A stretch of DNA of 64,000 bases from Homalodisca vitripennis (Eukaryota > Arthropoda > Insecta > Hemiptera > Cicadellidae): assembly GCF_021130785.1 (NCBI RefSeq), contig NC_060207.1:194857501-194921500 (forward strand), written 5' to 3'. Shown here piece after piece: positions 4,480-55,115 of the stretch; position 1 is the stretch's first letter; every line of letters starts with the position of its first letter. The notes under the pieces are model-generated. The model saw only the letters and a program-made list of their open reading frames with translations. It ran no database searches and was not told the origin of the DNA. The position numbers and the translations under genes are program-made.

Positions 4480-5129
4480 CTGGAAAAGAATGCATACAAT
4501 TAGTTTGATTAACAGCAGACACAAGACATATGACATAAGCTTGTGAAAAGATTTGGTAGAAAGACATAAACAAGCAGCAGATAAACATTATAGCAAAAAT
4601 AGGCAGTTATTAAAAAATGCTTAAAGAAATTCTCAAGACAGACAGTTTTATATACATTTTTTGTAAAATAAAGAAAACTACGTAAAATTACATCAAAAAT
4701 TTCTTAGTACAAAATAGGACATGAAATATAACAATGTGATGAGAAATACTACCCTACAAACAAAACACACAATTATTCAGATACAAAACTGTACAAACAA
4801 TTTTAAGCTTTTAGTAATGAATATGCAGTTTGTTTCCAACAAATATGTACAGGAGATACAGATCTCTGTCACTAACTACATAAAGTTGTATGTTTGTTCA
4901 ATGTAATAATGTAAAAAACATTTAATTATTTATTTGTATGGTTATTAATCAAAATGTGACTACTGATTATGCATGATTCAAAAATAAGTAATCGCATAAT
5001 AAATAAATAAATATACTATATATATACCGGGTGAGTTTTTTAAAGTGATCCAATAGCTAACTTTTAATTACACGACTTAGTACACACTTTAAATTTGGAA
5101 CTTTCTCAGTTTTAAGTTTCACTCAAAAA

Positions 5130-6100
5130 AACACTCAAATTTTTTGAAGATGGCCGCTATTTTCCAATATGGTGGCCAACTTTAAAATCTTTTATGGAAC
5201 ACCATGTATTTTATGTTTTTTTTAGATTCTACTCAAAAAATAAGACATTTTTGCTATTGAGAGTTTTTCAATATCTCTAATGGTTCAGGAGCTACGTGGA
5301 CTGGAAGTTTTCATCATCAGTGGCATGAACTCTTAAAGCATGTTTAATCAATGTTAGTTTTATGTGTTGTTAGTGTTTTGTTATGTGTGTAGTTTGTATG
5401 TGTTTTGATATTAGACATATTTTATGCTGAGCATTAATCATTTTGCTTTGATATTCATTTAACTTTTCAACTAAATGTTTAGTAAAAAAAACAATTGAGA
5501 TAAAAAAAGATTTCAGTAGCGACTTAGATAGATCGCAGTTAAACAAACTCATTTAAAGAATACATATTTTACTGAACACATTTAAAAATTATATAAAAAA
5601 TTATTATTGTAATAGCAATACCAAAACAAAGGACCAGTTCTAATAGCTTAGTAACTTTACAAGTTCAAATCAAATGTTCGAAGTGCCGCCCTTCTGTCTC
5701 AATTCACTTTCTGAGTCGTTGCCTATGCACTCTTTGTACCCTGATTAAAATGTCTTCGCCAATTAAGCTGCACTCGTTGCGTATCCTTTCACGCATGTCT
5801 TCGGGAGTTGTAGGGGGCGTGCCTTATCCTTTATGGCTCCCCACAGAAAAAATCCAAAGGACACATAAAACTAACATTGATTAAACGTGCTTTAAGAGTT
5901 CATGCCATTGATGATGAAAACTTCCAATCCACGTAGCTCCTGAACCATTAGAGATATTGAAAAACTCTCAATAGCAAAAATGTCTTATTTTTTAGAGTAG
6001 AATCTAAAAACAACATAAAATACAGGGTGTTCCATAAAAGATTTTAAAGTTGGCCACCATATTGGAAAATGACGGCCATCTTCAAAAAATTCGAAAGTGT
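5130..6100. mobile_element. foldback element derived from an IS630/Tc1-mariner-type transposon
   Basis: Two inverted arms of about 237 bp (5130-5366 and 5862-6100) face each other. They share GAAGATGGCCG..., the gggtgttccat-type motif and GTTCATGCCAnTGATGATG-type stretches. The loop holds a minus-strand transposase relic (separate entry). TACAGGGTGTTCCAT/ACCGGGTG sequences are typical termini or internal repeats of a widespread arthropod DDE_3 transposon group. Outside the left arm another ACCGGGTG occurs near 5028, so the true element may start about 100 bp further left. Confidence 0.7.
5665..5862 (-). pseudogene. DDE_3 (IS630-type) transposase C-terminal relic
   Basis: The minus strand reads DMRERIRNECSLIGEDILIR, then a basic stretch, one stop codon and EGRHFEHLI. 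This is the usual C-terminus of arthropod DDE_3 transposases (TPEDMRxRIxxAC... then GxHFEHL). Just upstream, a frameshifted SFGFFLWGAIKDKA matches the DFFLWGxLKDKVY block. Only about 60 residues remain, with a frameshift and a stop, so it is inactive. It sits in the loop of the foldback element at 5130-6100. Confidence 0.65.
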
Positions 6101-6683
6101 ATTTCTGTAAAAATGTGATAAATATCTCTAAAGATAAAATTGTATTGAAGTTTTTGCAAGTCGTAACAGCGTGTAGGCGTATGACACAAAAACTCACATA
6201 GCGCCAAAGAGTAATAACATATTACTGTTTTTATAACGTATATTTGTTATTTTACTATACTAAATTGCAAACAAAAAATATTATTGACTTATAGCAATAT
6301 GATGTTACTACAAAGTTTTATTGTGATTCAGGTAAATCTCTCATAGTTTATCAAACTAAAACTTGTAAAACAATATTAGCTGCAGTGACATGAACATTTG
6401 CTACCAAGTACTTTTTCCACCTATATTCCACACAACTTATGCAGTGTTTAATGCCTTAGTGAATGAGATATTTAATCTCAAGCTTAACACATAAGAGAGA
6501 TTAACGCAAGACCAACAAAGACCAACTCTTTTTTTCTTACTTTAATTTACTATTTAGTTTTGCCTATATCCATGTGCTAAATTTATTTAGTTCATAACAA
6601 GTAGAACTTAATAACTATTCACCTCATCCATCCTGTGAGCTCTGTGTAAAACACCTTGGCTGGTTATTTTATATATATATATA

Positions 6684-6740
6684 TAATTGAGTATTAAAAG
6701 TGAGTAATTCATAATCACGTTACAGAGTATGTTCTTAAAC

Positions 6741-6789
<49 letters not shown>

Positions 6790-6849
6790 TTAGTTTAAGA
6801 ACATACTCTGTAACGTGATTATGAATTACTCACTTTTAATACTCAATTA
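6684..6849. repeat. 63-bp-arm inverted repeat around a (TA)n core
   Basis: Left arm 6684-6746 starts TAATTGAGTATTAAAAGTGA. Right arm 6787-6849 is its reverse complement, ending TCACTTTTAATACTCAATTA, with essentially no mismatches. The 40-bp centre is pure TA dinucleotide. Such a palindrome can extrude a cruciform, and is a plausible MITE or replication-slippage product. Confidence 0.9.
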
Positions 6850-7497
6850 AGGATCAATACTCAGGGGGTTATAAATGAGGACAAATTAATGATCCTTACA
6901 AATTATATGTAACAATGTTTTTAATGTGTTCTTTAATAAGTGACGTGAGATAACAGACTTGCAGCATTTTTATCTTTGACTTAATTATTGACTAACAGAA
7001 ATATTAATAACAATTCAAGTAATCAGACTTAGTCACAACAGATAACTTATCACACCTGATTAGTTGCATCAATGGTTTCATGGGGCCTGCCTTTCTCACC
7101 AACAACAGACTTTATTTCTGTGGCTTTAATTTTTTGCAGTCTACCCACTTTTCTGTTTATCCATATAAGCCCAATACTTAGTATACAACAAGCTACTAGC
7201 TAGATGAGCTGATGTTCCCAAACATATAATGTGGGTACAAATGAGATATTTGAAAATCTTTATTATAATTCTGTTGTAGAGATATTCAATTTAAATTTAC
7301 ATTAAAACATAATAAAAGTTAGTTTCAATGAACAGTTCTGGAGCAATTGGAAATAATTTAAAACCCGTTGAAGTTAGTAAGAAGACAGAAGTACACCACA
7401 CCACGTGTCATAACAGGCTTTGCTGAAGTTGCATGCAAAATTAATTCAAATCTATGGCTTGTGACAGGTCAAATTACGACATTTGAATATTCGCGGG

Positions 7498-7569
7498 GAA
7501 TTGGCAGACTGTGACGACAGTGAATTGGCAGACTGTGACATCAGTGAATTGGCAGACTGTGACGTCAGT
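7498..7569 (+). promoter_or_regulatory. three 24-bp repeats carrying CRE/ATF-like sites
   Basis: Three tandem copies of GAATTGGCAGACTGTGACnn start at 7498, 7522 and 7546. The third contains a perfect TGACGTCA (7560-7567). The first two carry one-base variants (TGACGACA, TGACATCA). A further perfect TGACGTCA lies at 7754-7761. The repeats sit at the start of the LTR, the U3 position where retroelement enhancers lie. TGACGTCA is the CREB/ATF consensus; binding here is inferred. Confidence 0.6.
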
Positions 7570-7896
7570 GAATCACATGTTGTCGGAATTGAGATTTATT
7601 TAATTAATAACGGAAAAATATATTAAACTTTATACGGGAACAAATTTAATTAATTAAAATGAGTTAAACATAACCAAAATTCGTGTTTTACAAAAGTACT
7701 AAATAAAATTACGCAGAAAAGCCAATTGTGGGATAAAATGACTTGCGTATTGATGACGTCAGAAAGCACATGTTGCTAAAAATTTAAATAAAAAAGCTTT
7801 AGAAAAATAATAAAAGAAAATAGAAAGACTTAAATTGATCAATTATAGTGAACGTGATAAATTTCGACAATTATAAGAAAAGAATCAAACTATATT

Positions 7897-8238
7897 CAAT
7901 CGTGAAGACGCTGATTTGAACGGGAGAGGGGATGAACATTGTTTGGGCCGCTATGCGTGGTTTTTAGAGAGAGAATCCTTCTTCTCTGTCTGGACTTGAA
8001 GCAGCGAGGACGTCTACTCGTATAGATCCTCATGGTACAGTAGTGATGAAATTAATATGAAACTGTACAATCGTGAAGACGCTGATTTGAACGGGAGAGG
8101 GGATGAACATTGTTTGGGCCGCTATGCGTGGTTTTTAGAGAGAGAATCCTTCTTCTCTGTCTGGACTTGAAGCAGCGAGGACGTCTACTCGTATAGATCC
8201 TCATGGTACAGTAGTGATGAAATTAATATGAAACTGTA
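7897..8238 (+). repeat. 171-bp tandem duplication inside the 5' LTR
   Basis: The block starting CAATCGTGAAGACGCTGATT at 7897 recurs at 8068 with near identity. The 3' LTR has a single copy (from about 14459). LTRs are identical when an element inserts, so the duplication arose in this copy after insertion, or by recombination with another copy. Confidence 0.9.
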
Positions 8239-8784
8239 CAATAGTGCATTGAAGTTGTAATAAGGCATGGGATGTTGTGTTAGTGAACAAATTATCAAAG
8301 CAAAGTGAGTAGAATTAGACAGTATAACATAAAATAAATTGACATCAAGGTCATTTGCTTTGTCTTTCATTGATTATCCCATCTACAAAGAAATGTGGTA
8401 AGTAAGAAAATAAACTTTAACTTGAAGAGTATTACTTTCAAGGCTTATTAGAGTCAGGGTGATTAATGAAACACAGTGAATATTTTTGAACTTTATCATG
8501 ATGTAAATAATCATATTGATCAGAACTTTCAATGGAGTAATATTGACTTTTGAACCATCATTCAACCTATTTAAAAAACCTGAGATAGATATAGACCCAG
8601 TGCTGGTGATATAAACAACGCCACAGACATTGAGGTTTGATTGTTGTTTAAATACCGACGTGAAGCGGGTAGCACAACCAACGAGGGGCGGCACACTTGG
8701 AAAACTGATCGTGAGAAAATTGGCACAACAAACGTGGGACCTGGAACGTAGCAGAATGGCGACCAAAGTGGATCCGTAGCAAAA

Positions 8785-8810
8785 TGGCGCACCAACTGGA
8801 GGGCTCGAAC
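8785..8810 (+). other. primer-binding site, tRNA-Lys-like
   Basis: TGGCGCACCAACTGGAGGGC followed by TCGAAC begins three bases after the 5' LTR. It is close to the complement of the 3' end of insect tRNA-Lys(CUU), whose PBS form is TGGCGCCCAACGTGGGGCTC, with a few differences. The primer assignment rests on this resemblance. Confidence 0.75.
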
Positions 8811-9065
8811 TTCCACAATTAAATTTAAGTAGGTTAGTGGTAGCCTATTTTAGACCAAGTGAAGATCACTGTTTTTTATATAATTGTATTTTCAGGTGTG
8901 TGTCTAGAATAAGTATGATAAATTATTGTTAGCCTATAAGTTTGATAACTTTGAACACAGCCTAGTTATAATATAAATTTGTAAAATTTTCCTGGTAGGC
9001 TAGTAAAACAAATATTAGGCCTAAATTAATAACAAAAATTTTCAAATTAAACATAGGCTATAAAA

Positions 9066-10925
9066 ATGGAAGGCGAACAAAATAATGAAGGGCCCGCACC
9101 AATATTTGGACCAGTAGAAGTAGATCTTCATAGCTCAGCAGATACAGGGTATTTAGGTTGGTCATCCCCTAATACAGTAGAACATGAGGCGTCGACAACA
9201 GATGACAGAAATTCATTAGAAAATGAGAATGAGGTTAGCAGAGTCAGTAGTCCAGTAGGAGTTGATAGGGATGAAGGTCTTATTGCATTCATGAGGACTA
9301 TGATGAATAGTCTGAATGAAAAGATGGATAAAAATAATGAGGAATTGAGGGATCTAAATCATAAAATAGATCAGAATAGTGAGGAATTAAAAAGGGAGTT
9401 AAAACACAATTATGAGGAACTAAGAACGGAAATGCAAAGAAGTAATGAGCAGTTAAAACAAGACATGGAACAGATGAGAGGTGAGTTAAACAATAAAATA
9501 GTAGAGACAACGGAGGTTATGAGAGTAGAGATAAATAAAGACTTAAATACTTTAGATAAAGAATTAAAGAACTTGGAGGTGGGGGTCAGACTTGAACTAA
9601 GCGAACAAGCTGAGAAAAACAAAGGTGAGAGGAGTAAACTTAAAAGTCAGGTTAGAGGAGAGGTTACTACGGAGATAAAGAAATTAAAAGATAAAAGAGA
9701 AGAAGATATGAGGGAAATTGAGAAAAGGTTTGTACACATTGAGGATGATAAAAAGAAAATATATCAAAGATTAGAAAAGTTAAATAAGAGATTTAAAACA
9801 AGATTAGATGAATTAAATGGTAGGGTAGATAGGGACAGAGCTAACTTAGAACTTGACCAGGATGGAGAAAATGGTAAGGCGAGTAAGGACGTAGAGAACA
9901 AGTCAATAACGGGCAGTATTTTACAGGAAATAGAGGACATGGGAAATAGAATAGAAAAATCCTTGAATAAGAGATTGGATGAAACTTTAGGGAAATTAGA
10001 AAATAGACAAACAGAATTAGAGAATATGATGAGAAATCAAAGCATGGTGGGTATGAGAATAAGCCAACCAGCAAACACAGAAATATTCTTATTGGAATTT
10101 AATCCAATAAAAAATAATGTACATCCTATGGAATTTTTGGAAGCTTGTAAAAAATATATAGAGAAAAATGGAGAAGGACGGGATTTCCAGGTATTAATAA
10201 TTTTAAAATATATGAAAAATGAAGCAGGAAAGTGGGGACGACAGCACATAAATAATTGGAAAAACTTTGAACAGTTTTATAGGAGTTTTAAACGGAAATA
10301 TTGGTCCATAGGGGAACAGAAAAAATTTGAGAAAGAACTAATGGGTAACGGTACATATAGGGTTGGATTTGATAATCTAGTAACCTATGTATTGGAATTT
10401 TATAATAAAAGCCAGTATTTAGAAACTAGAATTGACATGGGAACATTCCTAGCATACATAAGCAAACATGTTCCTACAACCATAAGTAGTGCAATTCCTG
10501 CAGCCCAAAATGTTGAAAGATCGGAAGATCTAAAAAACCTGTTGAATCAACTTAATATACTGAATAGTGACACAAATAGAAGTTATGACAGATCATTTGA
10601 TATGAGAAATGAGACAACACTTAATAGAAATGTAAATCAATACAAGAATTTAAGACCTAAAGATACACTATATAGAGGGACACAAGTTAGAGGGAATATA
10701 AGAGGAAATAATTTGACTAGAGTAGGCCCATACTACAATAGGGACACATATAATAGGGAGAGAGTAGAGTTTGAGAATGATAGGAGAAGACAAAATGATA
10801 ATAGGGGCAGAGGTAAAAATGATTATGGAAAGGAGAAAGAAAGGTATGAAAACAACGAAACGAGGCATCAGAGAGATCAATATGAATATACAAAGGGAAG
10901 AGGAAGTATGAGAGGTAATAGGTGA
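9066..10925 (+). CDS. Gag-like protein of the LTR retrotransposon (619 aa)
   Basis: This is an intact reading frame of 619 codons, the longest in the window. Residues ~75-330 are a very charged Glu/Lys/Asn-rich region with long predicted coiled coil. Residues ~340-500 form a compact helical block (NPIKNNVHPMEFLEACKKYI, then a Trp-containing core) that resembles the capsid-like Gag domain of Ty3 elements. The C-terminal ~100 residues are Arg/Gly/Asn/Tyr-rich and basic. There is no CCHC zinc knuckle, so RNA binding may rely on the RG-rich tail. The frame ends TGA-CTAG and the same frame stays open for a further 121 codons into the SGNH-like segment. Confidence 0.85.
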   Translation: MEGEQNNEGPAPIFGPVEVDLHSSADTGYLGWSSPNTVEHEASTTDDRNSLENENEVSRVSSPVGVDRDEGLIAFMRTMMNSLNEKMDKNNEELRDLNHKIDQNSEELKRELKHNYEELRTEMQRSNEQLKQDMEQMRGELNNKIVETTEVMRVEINKDLNTLDKELKNLEVGVRLELSEQAEKNKGERSKLKSQVRGEVTTEIKKLKDKREEDMREIEKRFVHIEDDKKKIYQRLEKLNKRFKTRLDELNGRVDRDRANLELDQDGENGKASKDVENKSITGSILQEIEDMGNRIEKSLNKRLDETLGKLENRQTELENMMRNQSMVGMRISQPANTEIFLLEFNPIKNNVHPMEFLEACKKYIEKNGEGRDFQVLIILKYMKNEAGKWGRQHINNWKNFEQFYRSFKRKYWSIGEQKKFEKELMGNGTYRVGFDNLVTYVLEFYNKSQYLETRIDMGTFLAYISKHVPTTISSAIPAAQNVERSEDLKNLLNQLNILNSDTNRSYDRSFDMRNETTLNRNVNQYKNLRPKDTLYRGTQVRGNIRGNNLTRVGPYYNRDTYNRERVEFENDRRRQNDNRGRGKNDYGKEKERYENNETRHQRDQYEYTKGRGSMRGNR

Positions 10926-10940
10926 CTAGAGGAAAACCGG

Positions 10941-11291
10941 ATGGAAAACAAATGGGTAGGACAGGCTAGAATGAAGGAAACGATTGAGAAAAAAGAACCT
11001 AATTTTGAGGGATACCAAATGATAGGAGACTCTCAACTTAGGAGATTTGGGGAGAAAATAATGAATTTAAGAGGTGAATATAGAGAGAAAGGAGGAAAGA
11101 GAATTAACTTATGCATAGGAGGTCAGACAATTGAACAGTTGACCAGAGAGTTAAAACATGCAAATAATTTAGAAAGACAGCTAATAGTAATGATAGGTAC
11201 AAATGATTTATTAAGGGATAAAGAGGTAAGAAGCATTTGTGATGATTATGACAAACTGGTAGAGGTTTTACTGGAGAAAGGTGAAAAATAA
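10941..11291 (+). CDS. SGNH (GDSL-like) hydrolase, N-terminal segment, in frame with Gag
   Basis: This segment is 116 residues, in the same frame as Gag, starting 15 bp after the Gag stop. Residues ~25-35 read MIGDSQLRRF, with the block I Gly-Asp-Ser nucleophile. INLCIGGQTIEQL offers the block II glycine. IVMIGTNDLL supplies block III (Gly-Thr-Asn-Asp, oxyanion Asn). The frame stops at a TAA just where the next strand (ILVTNPP) would begin in another frame, a mutation in this copy. SGNH enzymes are esterases/lipases; an esterase domain is known in ORF1 of CR1-type LINEs. It could start at this Met or be made as a Gag extension through the leaky UGA. Confidence 0.7.
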   Translation: MENKWVGQARMKETIEKKEPNFEGYQMIGDSQLRRFGEKIMNLRGEYREKGGKRINLCIGGQTIEQLTRELKHANNLERQLIVMIGTNDLLRDKEVRSICDDYDKLVEVLLEKGEK

Positions 11292-11652
11292 TCTTGGTAA
11301 CAAATCCACCCATACCAAAGTTAGGTGAGAATGACAAGTATCATTTAAATAAACTTGAGAGAATAAATGGACATATAAAAAGTAAAGAAAATAGTGAAAA
11401 AATACAGTTTTGGAAGTGGCAGAGAAGTATTATGATAACTATGATAGTACAGACTGTAATGTGAAATTATATGAAAAAGAAATATTTTATAAAAGAAAAT
11501 GGTGTGAAGATTTGATACATCTGAATAAAGAGGGTCTAACAATTCTAGCAAATGAGCTTAGAAATCTGATAAGATCAGATAAGAAAAAATCCTGTCTAAG
11601 ACTAGGGGTGAATACAGCTTTTATACCAGAGAATGACATGTTGATGAATTGA
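11291..11652 (+). pseudogene. SGNH hydrolase C-terminal part, split by frameshifts
   Basis: After the stop at 11289-11291 the domain continues in a second frame (ILVTNPPIPKLGENDKYHLN). It moves to a third frame near 11405-11410, open to 11652. The third-frame part contains DLIHLNKEGLTILANEL, the block V Asp-x-x-His motif followed by the usual NxxG turn and helix. All four SGNH blocks are therefore present in order over ~210 residues, across two frameshifts. The lesions look like ordinary decay; I see no slippery heptamer with an open overlap that would argue for programmed shifting. Confidence 0.7.
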
Positions 11653-11969
11653 CCAATAAAGATAATTATAATGAAATTCCCATAAAACCAGTAGCAGAAG
11701 CACTACCTGAGATAGTTGGAAAAATAAATAAAGAGGAGTATCACATGATAATAGATTCAGGAAGCCAGGCGACAATAATGTCAGAAAAGTATTATAATGA
11801 GATAAAGGAAAGAAGTGTACTTGAGATTTTAGAGCTCCCGGTAACAAATTTGAGTATAATAGGAGTAACAGGTATTAGAAGTAAAAGGATAGATAAACAG
11901 GTCATGATAGAGGTGGAAATAGAGAATAAATTATTTCAAATAAATTTTCTAGTAGTTTTAAAGCAGTGA
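11649..11969 (+). CDS. retroviral-type aspartic protease segment
   Basis: The frame of 106 residues contains YHMIIDSGSQATIMSEKYY, the Asp-Ser-Gly active-site turn of retropepsins (hydrophobic-hydrophobic-D-S-G). A second conserved block, IILGCDFL, lies just downstream in another frame (from 11966), so one more frameshift splits the protease. The order after Gag and the SGNH segment fits the start of pol. It would cleave the polyprotein during particle maturation; this copy is broken. Confidence 0.75.
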   Translation: MTNKDNYNEIPIKPVAEALPEIVGKINKEEYHMIIDSGSQATIMSEKYYNEIKERSVLEILELPVTNLSIIGVTGIRSKRIDKQVMIEVEIENKLFQINFLVVLKQ

Positions 11970-12628
11970 ACTTGGGAATAATACTAGGATGTGACTTCTT
12001 AAGAGAACACAATGCAAAAATTAACTTTGAACATGGTAGGATAAAGTTGGAGGTAGATAAGGAAGTATTAAATGTTGAATTTACTGAATCAAACTGTGAA
12101 TCAGAGGATATAGTCAATGGTATAAAGTTAATTAGGTGCAATTATATAAATACATTAGTAAGTGAAGATGAGCTGAAGAATTCTTGGAACAACATAGAAT
12201 TTTTATGTAAAACACATACAGAAAATATGAAGGACAAACTTAATGATGAGAAGGATAAACAGGTTTTAGAAATATTAGAACATTGTGAAGTAAAGGAAAA
12301 TGAAGATTTAAATAAATTAAAAAGTATACTGATGAAAAATGAAGACATTTTTTCAGATGAACCAGGTTGTATAAATAATTATGAGGCCAAATTAAATATA
12401 ACAAATGAAAAGCCATTTGTAGGAAGATGCTATCCAATACCTTATTCAAAGAGGGAAGGTGTAAGAAAGGAAATAGGAAATATGTTGAAAGGAGACATAA
12501 TAGAGGAGTCTGATAGTCCATATTCTAACCCATTGGTGTGTGTAGTTAAAAAGGATCAACACATAATACCAGATAGGGAATCACCAATAAACATAGATGA
12601 TGTATTAAAAAAGTTTATAGGAGTTTAA
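11966..12628 (+). pseudogene. pol: protease end, linker and start of reverse transcriptase
   Basis: The 220-residue frame starts with the protease LGCDFLREHNAKINF block and a long linker. It then enters the Ty3-type RT fingers: KPFVGRCYPIPYSKREGVRK and IIEESDSPYSNPLVCVVKKD. About 15-20 residues expected between KKD and QHIIPDRE are missing, a small deletion removing the usual arginine-containing block. A one-base insertion in the first copy of the tandem duplication ends the frame at 12628. Confidence 0.75.
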
Positions 12629-12838
12629 ATATATGACATCATTAGATTTATCACAGGGATTTCTACAAACACAATTAAGTAAAGAGTCCAGGAAATATGT
12701 ATAATACCAGATAGGGAATCACCAATAAACATAGATGATGTATTAAAAAAGTTTATAGGAGTTAAATATATGACATCATTAGATTTATCACAGGGATTTC
12801 TACAAACACAATTAAGTCAAGAGTCCAGGAAATATGTA
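12563..12838 (+). repeat. 137/138-bp tandem duplication in the RT region
   Basis: The block starting ATAATACCAGATAGGGAATC at 12563 is repeated from 12701. The first copy has one extra T (GAGTTTAAAT against GAGTTAAAT), which changes frame and causes the stop at 12626-12628. It is a local copying error specific to this copy. Confidence 0.9.
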
Positions 12839-13216
12839 GCGTTTGTCTTCGAAGGAATGACAGAGTTTGTAACTACATATGTGGATGATATATTATTCAC
12901 TTTAAACACATATGAAGAACATTTAAAACATGTAGACCAGGTCTTAAGTAGATTAAAAGAAGGAGGAATAACAATAAAATTAAAGAAATCACAATTTTTA
13001 AGGAAAGAGATAAATTATTTAGGATACATTATTTCAGCTGAAGGAATTAAAATGGATAAAAATAAAATTGAACAGATAGTGAATTTCAAACGACCTACAA
13101 ACATAAAAGAACTACAAATGTTTAATGGATTATGTTTGTATTATGCAAAGTTTCAAAGACATTATGGTTATTTAATAGGACAGTTAAATCATTTATTGAG
13201 TAATAAAATAGAATAG
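12770..13216 (+). pseudogene. reverse transcriptase, palm/thumb remnant
   Basis: The frame of 148 residues holds MTSLDLSQGFLQTQL (RT motif A with the first catalytic Asp), then YVAFVFEG. It then jumps directly to TTYVDDILF (motif C, Y-V-D-D). The normal ~40-residue stretch between them, including the LPFGL block, is deleted. Motifs D/E follow (LKKSQFLRKEINYLGYIISA) and the connection start (IKELQMFNGLCLYYAKFQRH). The frame ends in LLSNKIE-stop, with no RNase H or integrase before the 3' LTR. Confidence 0.85.
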
Positions 13217-14045
13217 TCAGATTAGTATAAAGTTTGTTTAAATATTTAAAATAAGATGTGACAAGAGTAATGTAATATAGTATATAGCGTGTGTAATATG
13301 TTTCCAGTAGGAGATGACAATATAAGGATGTTACAATATTGTTTATCAGTAAGAATATGTTTAGGATTTTTTACAAGGTATTTATGTATTATCATAACTT
13401 GTGTGTGTAAAATCTAGTATAATCTAATAGTGTTAACTTGTATTGAACATTATGTTGTGTCAAATGGACACATTAAACATTATATTCAAAACATGTAAAG
13501 GTTACATGTATTCAGTTAAAAAAAAATATTTAAAAACTTTAGTACTGTTCTTATATATGAATATTTATTGTAATTTGTGTAGTTGACATATATATTCATT
13601 GATATTTGTATAGTTAATTATATATTCATTGAAATTTGTGTAATTGATTTATATATACACTGTAATTTGTGTAATTGTTTAATATTCATTGTAATTTGTG
13701 TAGTTGATATATATGTTCATTGATATTTGTATAGTTAATTATATATTCATCGAAATGTGTGTAATTGATTTATATATACACTGTCATTTGTGTAATTGTT
13801 TAATATTCATTGTAATGTGTGTAGTTGATTTATATATACATTGTAATTTGTGTCATATAATTGTAAGTATTTTGCTTTGCTTTGATATTTTACTTTGTTT
13901 TAAGTGAATACTCTTACAGGTGTTAACAAAATTATTAAAAAATTTAAATAATAGTTTAATTGAACAAAAATTTGAAAGATTTAATTACTTGGAGGAGAAA
14001 AATAAATTGACAACAAATATGTGATCAATTTATATTTGGGGGTTG
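13217..14045 (+). other. retrotransposon 3' untranslated region with AT-rich minisatellite
   Basis: No integrase coding is left here. Positions ~13560-13860 are a minisatellite of ~30-bp units (ATTCATTGTAATTTGTGTAA type) organised in a 121-bp higher-order period (compare GATATTTGTATAGTTAATTA at 13601 and 13722). The last bases before the 3' LTR (TTTGGGGGTTG) are the best candidate for the polypurine tract, and are weak. Confidence 0.6.
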
Positions 14046-15161
14046 TGTGACAGGTCAAATTACGACATTTGAATATTCGCGGGGAATTGGCAGACTGTGA
14101 CGTCAGTGAATTGGCAGACTGTGACGTCAGTGAATCACATGTTGTCGGAATTGAGATTTATTTAATTAATAACGGAAAAATATATTAAACTTTATACGGG
14201 AACAAATGTAATTAATTAAAATGAGTTAAACATAACCAAAATTCGTGTTTTACAAAAGTACTAAATAAAATTACACAGAAAGCCAATTGTGGGATAAAAT
14301 GACTTGCGTATTGATGACGTCAGAAAGCACATGTTGCTAAAAATTTAAATAAAAAAGCTTTAGAAAAATAATAAAAGAAAATAGAAAGACTTAAATTGAT
14401 CAATTATAGTGAACGTGATAAATTTCGACAATTATAAGAAAAGAATCAAACTATATTCAATCGTGAAGACGCTGATTTGAACGGGAGAGGGGATGAACAT
14501 TGTTTGATCCGGTATGCGTGGTTTTTAGAGAGAGAATCCTTCTTCTCTGTCTGGACTTGAAGCAGCGAGGATGTCTACTCGTATAGATCCTCATGGTACA
14601 GTAGTGATGAAATTAATATGAAACTGTACAATAGTGCATTGAAGTTGTAATAAGGCATGGGATGTTGTGTTAGTGAACAAATTATCAAAGCAAAGTGAGT
14701 AGAATTAGACAGTATAACATAAAATAAATTGACATCAAGGTCATTTGCTTTGTCTTTCATTGATTATCCCATCTACAAAGAAAAATGTGGTAAGTAAGAA
14801 AATAAACTTTAACTTGAAGAGTATTACTTTCAAGGCTTATTAGAGTCAGGGTGATTAATGAAACACAGTGAATATTTGTGAACTTTATCATGATGTAAAT
14901 AATCATATTGATCAGAACTTTCAATGGAGTAATATTGAGTTTTGAACCATCATTCAACCTATTTAAAAAACCTGAGATAGATATAGACCCAGTGCTGGTG
15001 ATATAAACAACACCACAGACATTGAGGTTTGATTGTTGTTTAAATGCCGACGTAAAGCGGGTAGCACAACCAACGAGGGGCGGCACACTTGGAAAACTAA
15101 TCGCGAGAAAATTGGCTCAACAAACGTGGGACCTGGAACGTAGCAAAGTGGATCCGTAGCA
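14046..15161 (+). repeat. 3' LTR (1116 bp)
   Basis: It starts TGTGACAGGTCAAATTACGA and ends GTGGATCCGTAGCA, followed by the target duplicate GGCT. It has two 24-bp CRE units, both with perfect TGACGTCA (14098-14105 and 14122-14129), and a third perfect site at 14315-14322. It lacks the 171-bp duplication of the 5' LTR. An AATAAA lies near 14724. Confidence 0.93.
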
Positions 15162-15165
15162 GGCT

Positions 15166-35064: not shown

Positions 35065-35640
35065 TCACAGCGTATGTGGTCGCCTTCCGATTCCCAACTT
35101 CCACTCTTTCCTATCATTCCAATCACCAGGTCCCAAGTTCCGTTCCGACATTGCCTTCGATATCCCCTGCTTCCATGTTTCTCTAGGGCGCCCCCTCTTT
35201 CGTCGTTCTGTTGGTAGCCATTCCATAAGAATTTTTGGCAGACGTTCCTCATCCATTCGGTTTACATGGCCGAACCATACTAACTGTTTCTGTCTAATTG
35301 CTTCAACAATAGTTTCTTCTCGTTTCATCGTTCTTCTTATCTCCTCATTTCGCACTCTGTCTAATTTCGATTTCCGCGCAGCTCTTCTCAGGAAATCCAT
35401 TTCGGTGGACAATAGTTTATTTTCCATTTTTCTGGAGATTTGCCATGTTTCACTACCGTAGGTCAAAGTGCTTTTGACAATCGTGTCGTAAATATGCATT
35501 TTCGTTCTGTTTCTTACATCTTTCTGCCATAGGATGGAGTTAAGTGTTCCCGTAATTCTTCGTGCTCCGACTATCCTGTCATTGATCATTTTTTCACACT
35601 TGCCATATCGTGCCCAAGTATATGTACTCTTCACACCCAC
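35065..35640 (-). pseudogene. LINE polyprotein C-terminal region
   Basis: After the frameshift the 191-residue frame gives CEKMINDRIVGARR, TLTYGSETWQISRKMENKLL, LVWFGHVNRMDEERLPK and RRKRGRPRETWKQGISKAM, and ends IGRRPHTL-stop. This (WFGHVxRM... GRPxxTW) is the standard C-terminal block after the thumb in many insect endonuclease-RT LINEs. Apart from the single frameshift the sequence is well preserved, so the insertion is fairly young. Confidence 0.85.
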
Positions 35641-36175
35641 TAATTTTTTCTCCAGAGTTCAGTTGTAGGTCTTGCATTTGTCCTCCTATACATAAGTATT
35701 TGGTTTTCTTTAAATTTACTGCTAGTCCCCACTTTTTATATTCCTCCAGCAACTTCCTCGTCATATACTCTAAATCTTCAGGGTCTTGAGCGAGTACCAC
35801 CTGGTCGTCGGCATAATGCAGTGTATATAGCGTTCGATCACCCACTGAAATTCCCATTCCACTGCATTTCCGTCTCCATTTTGCTAATGCAGCATCGACG
35901 TATATGTTGAACAATATTGGTGACATGCAGCAACCTTGTCGGAGTCCTTTGCTGTCTGTAAAAATGGAAGTTAGACTATTACCGATTTTCACTTGTGCAG
36001 TATTGTTAGTGTACATTTCTTTGACGGTTTTTATAATCGGTATACCGATCTGTGATTCGTCTAGTACCTTAAAAAGGGTTTTGATTGGCACATTGTCATA
36101 CGCTTTTGTTAAGTCTACGAATAGTAGATCAGTACTTCTTCCCGTGGCTAATCTTTTTTCGGCCATTTGCATACT
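35594..36175 (-). pseudogene. LINE reverse transcriptase, catalytic part
   Basis: The frame shows LLFVDLTKAYDNVP (motif A), GLRQGCCMSPILFNIYVDAA (motif B), LHYADDQVVLA (motif C, Y-A-D-D) and AVNLKKTKYLCIG. The frame also reads through the flanking target duplicate upstream to an ATG at 36199, so that ATG is host-derived. It ends in a frameshift near 35600-35640, where both frames read the same EYIYLG-type strand. An RTE-like endonuclease-RT element is likely; the clade is not proven. Confidence 0.8.
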
Positions 36176-36459
36176 TAATATAAATGTAAGTATGTTCATT
36201 TAGAGGTTTTGATTGAATTAAGTATGTAAGTTGTTCACGGATGTAGGGTGTTCACCTTTCAAATTACATGCATTGAATGAAAACTCCAAAATTAGTTATG
36301 CTCAAAATAAACTAGAAAAACTACATAAAAATGTTACAATGAAAATTAAGACAGTTTTAGATGTTGAAGTGTCATCAAAAGTACCTGAATTATAACAAAA
36401 TACTGAGCAAAAAGCAGCAGAAATGGACTTACTTGTTGAGAACATAAAAAGTGAACTGA

Positions 36460-52160: not shown

Positions 52161-54409
52161 TAAAAATTTAGTCTTGGTCAGATTTCATTAATAAGAAATA
52201 CATTTATTTGAAAATATTTATGATAAAATGGTGATTTATTGTAGGCTACGCCTAAGTGATGGATTGAGCTCTGACCTCAAGTAATTTAAGGGAACTGGTC
52301 GAAATAGGTCTCAGAAAAAGGAACTTGTGATATCATAATAAAATTACATTATATTGATGTACGTGTTTAATTATCTTATTATTCATTCTAATTCAACAAT
52401 GTTCAGGCTGATGTAAATAAGGATTAGGTAACACTTTGTATGTTATTATGGATTTGAATTTTTTCTAACTGGTGTTCATTATCACATTTTATTTTGTAAA
52501 TTTGGTATTATTCCATATATTTAGACATAGTTTATAGTTTTCTAAAACTATATAAAATATCCTATCAGTTATAAACCATAAATTTAATTATAATACAAAC
52601 TTTCAAAAACATCTGATACTTTGCATTATGAAAATCTTTTGTAAAAGTTTTGAATAATGACAAAAAGTAACATTTTCATACTTTTCAAAAAATGAGTTAT
52701 GGAGTCTATATCATTGTACTTTGAATTAAATGAGTTATACAGCTATAATTCATTGAATTCAGAGTAACAAAATTTGCAATGTTTCATATATTCATATACG
52801 ATTGTATTAGCAAAATTTGTGTTACCAAACTCTTACATATATTGTGCGTATACCCGATTTTCATAATTTATGTGCATAACTGCTTTTTGTTTTATAGCTT
52901 TATTATGGTTTTCTATGTATGTATAAAGTTTGTTTTTCTGAAACTAGATTAAATTTAACGCTTAGTGGGTATCTCACATTTACATTTTTCTCAATAACTT
53001 GATTTGATAAGAATGGTTCCCCTAAATTTTAGAAATGTCTGCAAAATGTACTTAAAAAAGATTTGATTCAAATTGTGTTATGTGCTACTTTAAATGCAAA
53101 TATTATTCTTTGTTTAATTCTGAACAAAAAGTGTATACATTTATATTGTCCGGAGAAATCGTGTTTCCTCCACAATCCTTCCATTATCAAAAACAAACTT
53201 CAAACAAAGAAGTACAATTTTGTATCAGTTTCTTTAAGTAGATTTTATTTAATGAGAAGGTTGGACTTCAACCTCTTTTATGGTCAATATCTGCTCTTCC
53301 CTGAAGGTTAATTATTTCTTCCTCGTATGGTTGATTTTAAATAATAAATTCTTTTCAGGGCTACAAATTATTGTAGTTTCTGGTGTATAATGCTACAGTA
53401 TCATGAGGTTATGTTTTAATATTATTGTGAATGGCAGACATTCTTATTGTATTGTAGATGCTTGAAAACCGAATATAGGGGGATCTTATTCAGGTATTCT
53501 ACATCTACACATATTTGTGCCAATCTTAGTCTGTAGGGCCAATGCAACAAAGACGTCTATTGTGTCCACAGTTGTAGAGATTGTCAATCAGATTTTGATC
53601 ATTGGGAGTCAACTTTATCAGTGCATACATTTAGACATACGTAGTACATAAAAGGTTCAGAGACCAAGTATGTTTAAGTTTCTTAACTTATTTAAGTATC
53701 TGCCCTTCCTAAAAGTGATTTTGCCTTAGGAAAGAATATGCATGGCACCCTCACTCCAATGTCCAGTATCTTAAATAAAAATAAAATAGAATAAATAAAA
53801 ATTAATAGTAATCTGATCCTTCCTTTGACAATACAAGGCCATACAATAAATGCTCATTTATTTACAATCAATGATTTGTCGTTACTGCTTCCCGAGCATT
53901 CTCTTCTCAATTCAGCTGAGAGTTAAAACCAATTCACAACCTTACTGAAAGCACCATTGCTAGAAAAGATATCTATGATATGTTAGTTGGGGCAAGGCTC
54001 GACTAATACAGGCTGGAGTGCTGCTGTTCCCCACTACCAGTCTATATCGCATATCCGTCCCGCCGTTCATATATTCCTCACACACTGTTCCTTTTTTTCC
54101 AAGGGGATAACATGTTTGATAAATTATTTAAATATATTAATAGTTAAAAAGTAGTTTCTATACTCCAAAGTAATAGTTGAGGACTCGCAGCAGGCAGAAA
54201 GTAAGGGTTGCAGAGGCCAGCTGTGGGAGTGTTATGTAGGGTTAAGGTTCTATAATATTTCAGGGGCATTGCTTGCCTTTTGTTTAATTTTGATTTCATG
54301 TAGAAATGTAATTTAAACCAAAGAACCCATACAGTGTTCTAGCCTAGACTTTAAATAACTCTATGGTATTATGAAAACAGTACCAAACATGTTTCTTGAA
54401 TGCTTTCAG

Positions 54410-55017
54410 ATTCAGTTCATCACCCTGATGATCTACAAGTACAAGATCCAATACCAGAAGAACAAACGGCAGAGGATCCTCATCCCGCACAGGAAGAGCC
54501 ATCTCTGGAAGAAACGGCTGCAGAATCCGAAAATCTCCCAGAGGAGGAAACTCCAGTGGCGGAACAAGAGGAGGACACCTTAATGGCTGAATCTGAGGAA
54601 GAGACTCCGATGGCTGAACCACAGAAGGAGACTCCGGTGGAATCTCAGGAAGGAAAACAAGTGATTGGATCTCAGGAGCAGACATCGGTATCCGAACCCA
54701 TGTCTGCTCCTGGTACTACTGACACCTCAAAACCCAAACTGACAATGATGCGCACCCCGTCGCTCATTGATGACTACGTCTCGGAATTTGACTCATCACT
54801 TCCGGTTAGACAGGAGGCTTCCCCTCCTGCGCCCACTCCTGTGCTCTCTGTCTCTGCCCCCACTATACTTAACCCACTCCCAGTGACTGCTGCCCCCATC
54901 CCTGTGTTGTCAGTGGCTCCCCTCCGTTCTGTACCCATCCAAGCACCTATTCCTGTGTCTTCAATGCTTGAACAGGACAAGAAGAGTACAGAGGAATTGA
55001 AGAATCTGAAGAATGAG
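54410..55017 (+). CDS. Hcf: Hcf exon, long acidic to Pro/Ser/Thr-rich linker
   Basis: The acceptor (tgctttcag) is at 54409 and the donor GAG|gtatct at 55018. The exon is 608 nt, phase 1 in and phase 0 out. The first ~90 residues are very acidic with short repeats of (E)ETPVAE/EETPMAE. The next ~110 are Pro/Ser/Val/Ala-rich (PTPVLSVSAPTILNPLPVTA), and the end is a charged helix (ELKNLKNEVS). The composition matches an activation-type linker; no catalytic domain is present. It is the largest Hcf exon seen, and the splice sites and phase agree on both sides. Confidence 0.85.
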
Positions 55018-55115
55018 GTATCTGATTTAAAATAACATTCTGCAAGCTTTGAAAATAACGTAGTTTTATTTTTAATCTGTTAATAAGTCATAACTTTGAT
55101 TTTATTAGTTACACA

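Follow-up and report, generated by a model that had tools for sequence, protein, structure and literature searches.

Oskar, the organiser of insect germ plasm, is a well-known developmental gene that is said to have arisen by fusion with a domain from bacteria, and a bacterial origin of this RNA-binding half of the protein, the OSK domain, is the published view (PMC7250577, PMC13389597). In the sections of PMC7250577 drawn on here, phylogenetic trees nest OSK within bacteria, and BLAST with the OSK domain detected nothing similar in eukaryotes; the matches of an iterative profile search that passed its E-value threshold were, Oskars aside, limited to fungal Carbohydrate Active Enzyme 3 proteins. 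Insect OSK is said to be missing key hydrolytic residues in the pertinent part of PMC13389597, and oskar is described as almost absent from Hemiptera in that of PMC8662646. The protein has been set beside the SGNH proteins of long interspersed nuclear elements (LINEs): a passage of PMC4754038 compares the two functionally, and PMC3905857, in the part concerned, includes Oskar in an alignment with LINE esterases, as a non-catalytic member of the SGNH proteins. Among the papers listed in searches of the open-licence PMC literature, none connects OSK with a retrotransposon. The window described here is a 64,000-nucleotide stretch of the leafhopper Homalodisca vitripennis (Hemiptera; assembly GCF_021130785.1, contig NC_060207.1, positions 194,857,501 to 194,921,500 of the forward strand); it contains a Ty3/Gypsy-type long terminal repeat (LTR) retrotransposon with an SGNH domain located between Gag and protease.

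It is considered probable that a Ty3/Gypsy-type family of H. vitripennis encodes an OSK-clade SGNH domain with esterase motifs between Gag and protease, that this domain is made through read-through of the Gag stop, and that it serves particle or ribonucleoprotein (RNP) assembly. A catalytic-type relative of OSK in an insect retrotransposon would be a possible intermediate and vehicle for the domain, found in a host order that has nearly lost oskar (part of PMC8662646); retrotransposons thus become a testable alternative source of Oskar's OSK domain, for which existing insect genomes can be used.

The SGNH domain between Gag and protease

An earlier note, made from the letters of the window alone, had placed four SGNH blocks in order between the Gag and protease of a Ty3/Gypsy-type element, and every motif was located as claimed. 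The Gag open reading frame (ORF) in the ORF list occupies 9066..10925 (+), opening with the ATG at 9066 and closing with the TGA of 10923-10925, the next codon being CTA; the N-terminal half of the protein is coiled-coil-like and the C-terminal end is RG-rich. The SGNH domain spans 10926-11652. Its N-terminal two thirds (10926..11291, +) form a 121-codon ORF that starts right after the Gag TGA in the Gag frame, is recognized by the OSK model of Pfam, and holds MIGDSQLRRF (block I; MIGDS at 11019-11033), LCIGGQT (block II Gly; 11109-11129) and MIGTNDLL (block III; MIGTND at 11190-11207). The middle of the domain lies in a second frame (11285..11404, +) and matches residues 453-492 of the H. vitripennis protein P0009; the C-terminal part lies in a third (11398..11652, +), is 96% identical to P0009, and carries the DLIH of block V (11509-11520) within DLIHLNKEG. 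The aspartic protease (11637..11969, +), with the motif IDSGSQ, matches PF09668 (1.8e-4) and PF13975 (2.5e-4), both under the Pfam curated cut-off; in P0009 the SGNH domain passes directly into the start of this protease.

The earlier note had asked whether the domain is intact in full-length relatives; in the window copy it is broken. Relative to H. vitripennis proteins, frame changes occur near 11285-11291 and 11404, both within the domain, and near 11640, before the protease; the window copy is therefore a fossil. The blocks themselves are kept, as blocks I (GDS), II (Gly) and III (GxND) are found in order in window 10926-11291, in P0001 and in P0013, and the block V DxxH is present as DLIH in P0009 and, out of frame, in the window. 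With a Ser in block I, an Asn in block III and DLIH, the domain of the element looks like an enzyme, judged by these motifs.

Other H. vitripennis copies carry the arrangement in parts. P0013 (496 aa) runs from Gag into the SGNH domain in a single frame, P0009 (603 aa) covers the latter half of the SGNH domain and continues into the start of the protease, and P0007 (Gag) and P0002 (SGNH domain) have consecutive locus tags and contigs of equal length; from the sequences of these proteins, the order Gag, SGNH, protease is that of an element family, beyond one copy. The C-terminal end of Gag is identical in position to that of the window in P0003, P0004 and P0008 (3 of 12 Gag matches; clusters of 9, 3 and 1 sequences), so the stop before the SGNH domain looks regular; the remaining 9 matches have other end points or come from truncated or spliced gene models. 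Compared with the window at the amino-acid level, the N- and C-terminal pieces of the SGNH domain show 94-97% identity (four comparisons) and Gag shows 86-95% in 11 of its 12 matches, P0011 being excluded. Of the 677 residues of P0011 (J6590_039092 of H. vitripennis), 551 occur in the window as exact stretches, in keeping with this host or one very near it. The tail of P0001 diverges from the other copies, and the protein was trimmed at residue 122 in most comparisons.

Read-through is the simplest route to the downstream part, because Gag and the SGNH domain share one frame. It is proposed that a fraction of ribosomes would read through the Gag stop (UGA-CUA in the window copy, a context taken here to be favourable to read-through) and produce a Gag-SGNH-protease-Pol protein; the SGNH domain would thereby enter the particle at a dose like that of Gag-Pol and be freed by the protease. 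It may then serve to hydrolyse short ester or lipid groups, whether of membranes or of proteins, or to bind RNA or membranes, and would act during particle or RNP assembly or trafficking. By analogy with the LINE ORF1 esterases, as treated in the relevant part of PMC3905857, an esterase or membrane/RNP-assembly role is considered the most likely.

Affinity with the OSK domain of Oskar

The comparisons draw on three sets of proteins. The Oskar set comprises the 54 proteins returned, of which those named are all from Diptera and five are nameless; 23 of them entered the main hidden Markov model (HMM). The bacterial set holds the best 80 of 465 confirmed loci (at least 595 stretches), obtained with one ordinary-SGNH pattern and thus a sample of one broad group, plus P0015, giving 81. 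The IMG/VR set uses 21 of 25 loci, four presumed near-duplicates having been dropped; one of those kept has the same sequence as a bacterial row. Within this sample, sequence comparison indicates that the OSK domain of Oskar is the nearest relative of the element's domain.

The N-terminal piece of the window matches Pfam OSK (PF17182) with 55.3 bits (E=6.9e-15), and P0001, P0002 and P0013 reach 69.9, 68.6 and 67.7 bits over the N-terminal two thirds, at a gathering cutoff of 27; Lipase_GDSL_2 gives these four sequences 26-42 bits, under their OSK scores. The HMM search proposed in the earlier note thus bears out the N-terminal two thirds, with OSK above GDSL, and fails for the C-terminal piece of the window, which on its own has no SGNH match of any kind in Pfam. 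Of the 81 bacterial proteins, 60 touch the OSK model at E-values of 10 or less; the highest score among them is 43.4 bits, and some exceed 27. The six of them shown singly score 68-113 on GDSL_2 against at most 43 on OSK. The esterase ZfL2-1 of the LINE clade CR1 scores 16 on OSK and 62 on GDSL_2, and the OSK of Drosophila melanogaster 313 and 21; among the proteins scored singly, only those of the element and Oskar score higher on OSK than on GDSL_2.

Profiles built from Oskars give the same order. On the 23-Oskar HMM, four pieces of the element score 42-60 bits, the best of the 81 bacteria 30.5 and CR1 10.3; shuffles of the P0001 domain peak at 6.1 bits on the dipteran OSK HMM (444 of 500 reported, 56 without a score), and the match is therefore above chance. 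The ranking is kept with HMMs of 8 Drosophilidae, of the other 15 Oskars, and of Megaselia with Hermetia, and also against the 21 IMG/VR proteins, TesA and PAF-AH; none of the 81 bacterial or 21 IMG/VR proteins equals the element on any of the four Oskar HMMs. In the reverse direction, an HMM from three pieces of the element ranks nine Oskars ahead of the first bacterium. With hhalign, the element scores 88.7 against OSK (122 columns), 68.2 against IMG/VR, 61.1 against bacteria and 31.7 against CR1; OSK scores 71.1, 68.1 and 38.4 against the latter three, so that its best partner among those run is the element. The CR1 profile, made of two sequences (ZfL2-1 and one fish L2 sequence), has bacteria as its best partner of three groups compared. 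Pairwise scores of the P0001 domain have a median of 109 and a best of 128 with the 23 Oskars, and 61 and 103 with the 81 bacteria. The element and Oskar also have in common the stretch LC-[IV]-x-G-[QL]-T-I, and in both the stretch from block I to block II is longer than in the bacterial rows shown. The best sequence match of the element in the PDB is Oskar, at weak E-values; a PDB search with one bacterial SGNH protein gave 55 matches, with Oskar not among them.

Searches of other collections gave no close relatives: viral contigs held no confirmed relative of P0001 or of alignment A3, and genome contigs none of alignment A3. By tblastn, the window piece found nothing better than E 2 in phages, P0001 found one GDSL protein at E 0.08 in plasmids (the rest at E of at least 0.9), and D. 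melanogaster OSK found an arylesterase at E 0.1 in plasmids. From these comparisons the element is a candidate eukaryotic relative of OSK.

Structure prediction, which the earlier note had named as a check on the SGNH fold, agrees with it at modest confidence. AlphaFold2 gave two models for a partial copy, with predicted local distance difference test values of 62.7 and 60.2 and with SGNH proteins in their input alignments; both have an alpha/beta fold and retrieved SGNH-fold chains first in Foldseek.

Trees were built on the N-terminal part (99 columns); they included 32 bacteria from the set of 81, of which ten were chosen for the highest scores on the Oskar HMM, together with 12 of the 54 Oskars. 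The element groups with OSK at 95/69 in a 49-row tree (bootstrap unsettled) and at 99/73 in a 73-row tree, in which CR1 joins outside both at 98/84. When two long IMG/VR rows, CR1, TesA and PAF-AH are removed, an unrooted split separates the element and OSK from the 51 remaining rows of bacteria and IMG/VR with 100/99 support, its bootstrap again unsettled.

A number of results weigh against the proposed reading. The 40-residue middle piece of the domain is just 87.5% identical to P0009, no better than Gag, and no copy with a complete open Gag-SGNH-protease-Pol was seen among those of H. vitripennis; nor is there an RNA hairpin after the Gag stop (z +0.55). The affinity with OSK is uneven: P0009 and the C-terminal piece of the window have no Pfam OSK match, the C-terminal third matches OSK weakly (12 bits), the E-values of the Oskar match in the PDB are 0.05 and 0.016, and D. 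melanogaster OSK has a pairwise score of 77, under several bacteria (up to 103). Foldseek ranks Oskar first for the model from the alignment with Oskars and tenth, behind esterases, for the model from the alignment without Oskar rows, so that the fold supports SGNH and not OSK specifically; VIA-align likewise ties Oskar with other SGNH proteins. A tree with the element among the bacterial and IMG/VR rows and OSK with CR1 opposite is 24 log units worse and is not rejected by the approximately unbiased test (p-AU 0.24), and neither is one that unites the element with CR1 (p-AU 0.46).

The first of these two trees would suit a history with two separate acquisitions of SGNH genes from related bacteria, one by the element and one by Oskar, their closeness reflecting shared bacterial ancestry and thin sampling. 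The many bacterial proteins that touch the OSK model, and the placement of OSK within bacteria in published trees (in the part of PMC7250577 used here), fit such a history; the shared LC-[IV]-x-G-[QL]-T-I stretch, the long interval between blocks I and II, and the scores of all 81 bacterial and 21 IMG/VR proteins below the element on four Oskar HMMs do not, and parallel acquisition is regarded as possible and somewhat doubtful. The second tree, like the position of CR1 next to OSK and the element in the 73-row tree, bears on a source among CR1/LINE-type esterases, which the earlier note had entertained. This origin has lost ground and is considered very improbable, since ZfL2-1 has its Pfam scores reversed, CR1 has the lowest profile score with the element of four groups and is itself best matched by bacteria, and the CR1 branch is long (3.67 in the 49-row tree).

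The broken window copy, the lack of a whole intact copy and of RNA structure at the Gag stop, and the poorly conserved middle piece would also be expected if the domain were an inert passenger, that is, a functionless fragment inserted once in a master copy and spread by hitch-hiking. This is thought quite improbable, as the domain is in frame with Gag and with the protease, in different copies, the catalytic motifs are kept, and the N- and C-terminal pieces are conserved as well as Gag or better.

The direction of any transfer between element and host can be approached through the residues that Oskar has lost. Taking the first motif match in the whole protein, block I of the 54 Oskars reads GDD in 52, GDK in one and GDV in one, and is never Ser; block III reads GSVD in 50 and GSED in two, and was not found in two. 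WNKIGR is seen in the block V region of 53 of the 54. Ser, Asn and DxxH, lost in Oskars, are all present in the element, and descent from an oskar already without these residues is thus unlikely. Retroelements often take host genes, and the element could have captured the domain from an early, oskar-like host gene before catalysis was lost, or both could derive from one eukaryotic SGNH gene; the reciprocal best match of element and OSK among the groups compared would be expected from this. Such a capture is considered unlikely in view of the catalytic motifs of the element, the absence of a block I Ser from all 54 Oskars, and the lack of any LOTUS domain when the window Gag, P0009 and P0013 were scanned with Pfam. 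Published statements that insect OSK is without key hydrolytic residues (PMC13389597, in part) and that Hemiptera are almost without oskar (PMC8662646, in part) also speak against it.

The opposite direction, in which the OSK half of Oskar would derive from the SGNH esterase of insect Ty3/Gypsy elements and not directly from a bacterium, is put forward tentatively and as rather unlikely. In this scenario an element would insert near a LOTUS gene, its domain would be fused to that gene, and catalysis would then be lost; an RNP-assembly or RNA-binding ability, earlier used in particle assembly, would be retained.

The surrounding element and the rest of the window

The body of the element (7460-15161) is flanked by a target-site duplication GGCT, seen in the LTR boundary sequences on the left (7456..7459) and right (15162..15165), with no strand assigned. 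LTR comparison defines the 5' LTR (7460..8781, +), TGTGAC...GTAGCA, and the 3' LTR (14046..15161, +), which are 97.4% and 98.4% identical in two long matching blocks; a duplication of about 170 nt lies within the 5' LTR and the 3' LTR is without it. From position and sequence only, a primer-binding-site-like TGGCGCACCAACTGGAGG is placed immediately inside the 5' LTR (8785..8802, +) and a polypurine-tract-like TTTGGGGGTTG abuts the 3' LTR (14035..14045, +). An ORF in another frame (11930..12628, +), without a Pfam match above cut-off, is assigned by its place to the end of the protease and the start of the reverse transcriptase. The reverse transcriptase itself (12683..13216, +), with the motif YVDD, matches RVT_1 at 7e-17, and its best PDB chain is Ty3 reverse transcriptase (4ol8, 5e-20); repeat comparison shows a tandem duplication of about 138 nt within it (12563..12838, +). 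LTRs with a short target-site duplication, a reverse transcriptase nearest the Ty3 type and a protease upstream of it place the element in Ty3/Gypsy (Metaviridae), as the earlier note had held. That note also suspected an under-described lineage, and searches of an open-access library yielded no report of an element of this kind.

The ORF list has no RNase H or integrase ORF downstream of the reverse transcriptase in the window copy. Two 121-nt direct repeats (95%) lie at 13560-13801, in the AT-rich stretch between the reverse transcriptase and the 3' LTR where these domains would be expected. Upstream of the element are a near-perfect, spacer-free palindrome (6684-6849) with 83-nt arms that are 99% complementary, and nested inverted repeats (5117-6112) with arms of 145 and 124 nt (94% and 90%), which may represent a small foldback element. 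On the minus strand an ORF at 35597-36199 encodes a reverse transcriptase (RVT_1 6.8e-28) belonging to a non-LTR retrotransposon fragment (35065-36199); the adjoining ORF at 35065-35655 (-) has no Pfam match and is probably its continuation. A Pro/Glu-rich ORF of 211 aa at 54400-55035 (+) has no Pfam match at E 0.01. ARAGORN found no tRNA in the window, and Rfam no match at the gathering threshold.

Comparison with known systems

Within this sample the closest described domain is the OSK of Oskar (PF17182; PDB 5a4a, 5cd9), which the element resembles in its best Pfam model, profile and pairwise scores, weak PDB match and the shared LC-[IV]-x-G-[QL]-T-I; unlike Oskar, the element has kept Ser, Asn and DxxH motifs, is without a LOTUS domain in the proteins scanned, and places the domain in a Gag-protease-reverse transcriptase element. 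The 81 bacterial GDSL/SGNH esterases share its fold and catalytic motifs but have lower OSK-profile scores and, in the rows shown, a shorter stretch between blocks I and II. As a retrotransposon, the element agrees with Ty3/Metaviridae in its LTRs with a target-site duplication, its protease before the reverse transcriptase and a reverse transcriptase nearest Ty3, and differs in the extra domain between Gag and protease and in lacking RNase H and integrase in the window copy. The dUTPase of betaretroviruses is likewise an enzyme domain between nucleocapsid and protease, made at the Gag-Pro level; it is unrelated to SGNH enzymes and is reached through a frameshift, whereas the leafhopper domain would be reached through stop read-through.

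Among retroelements with SGNH domains, the ORF1 esterases of CR1, RTEX and Penelope elements, such as ZfL2-1 (PDB 4c1b; PMC3905857, in part), share the block I pattern GDS-x-x-R, but CR1-type elements are non-LTR elements without LTRs, ZfL2-1 fits GDSL_2 over OSK, and they form the most distant group by profile. The Vesta LTR retrotransposons of bdelloids, as described in the relevant section of PMC5408684, also combine an LTR element with an SGNH enzyme domain that has the invariant residues; in Vesta the GDSL domain is a separate ORF3, outside gag (ORF1) and pol (ORF2), whereas the leafhopper domain lies between Gag and protease, and that section makes no mention of kinship with OSK. The leafhopper family would thus extend the kinds of LTR element that carry an SGNH enzyme, with a position of the domain that would load the enzyme into particles.
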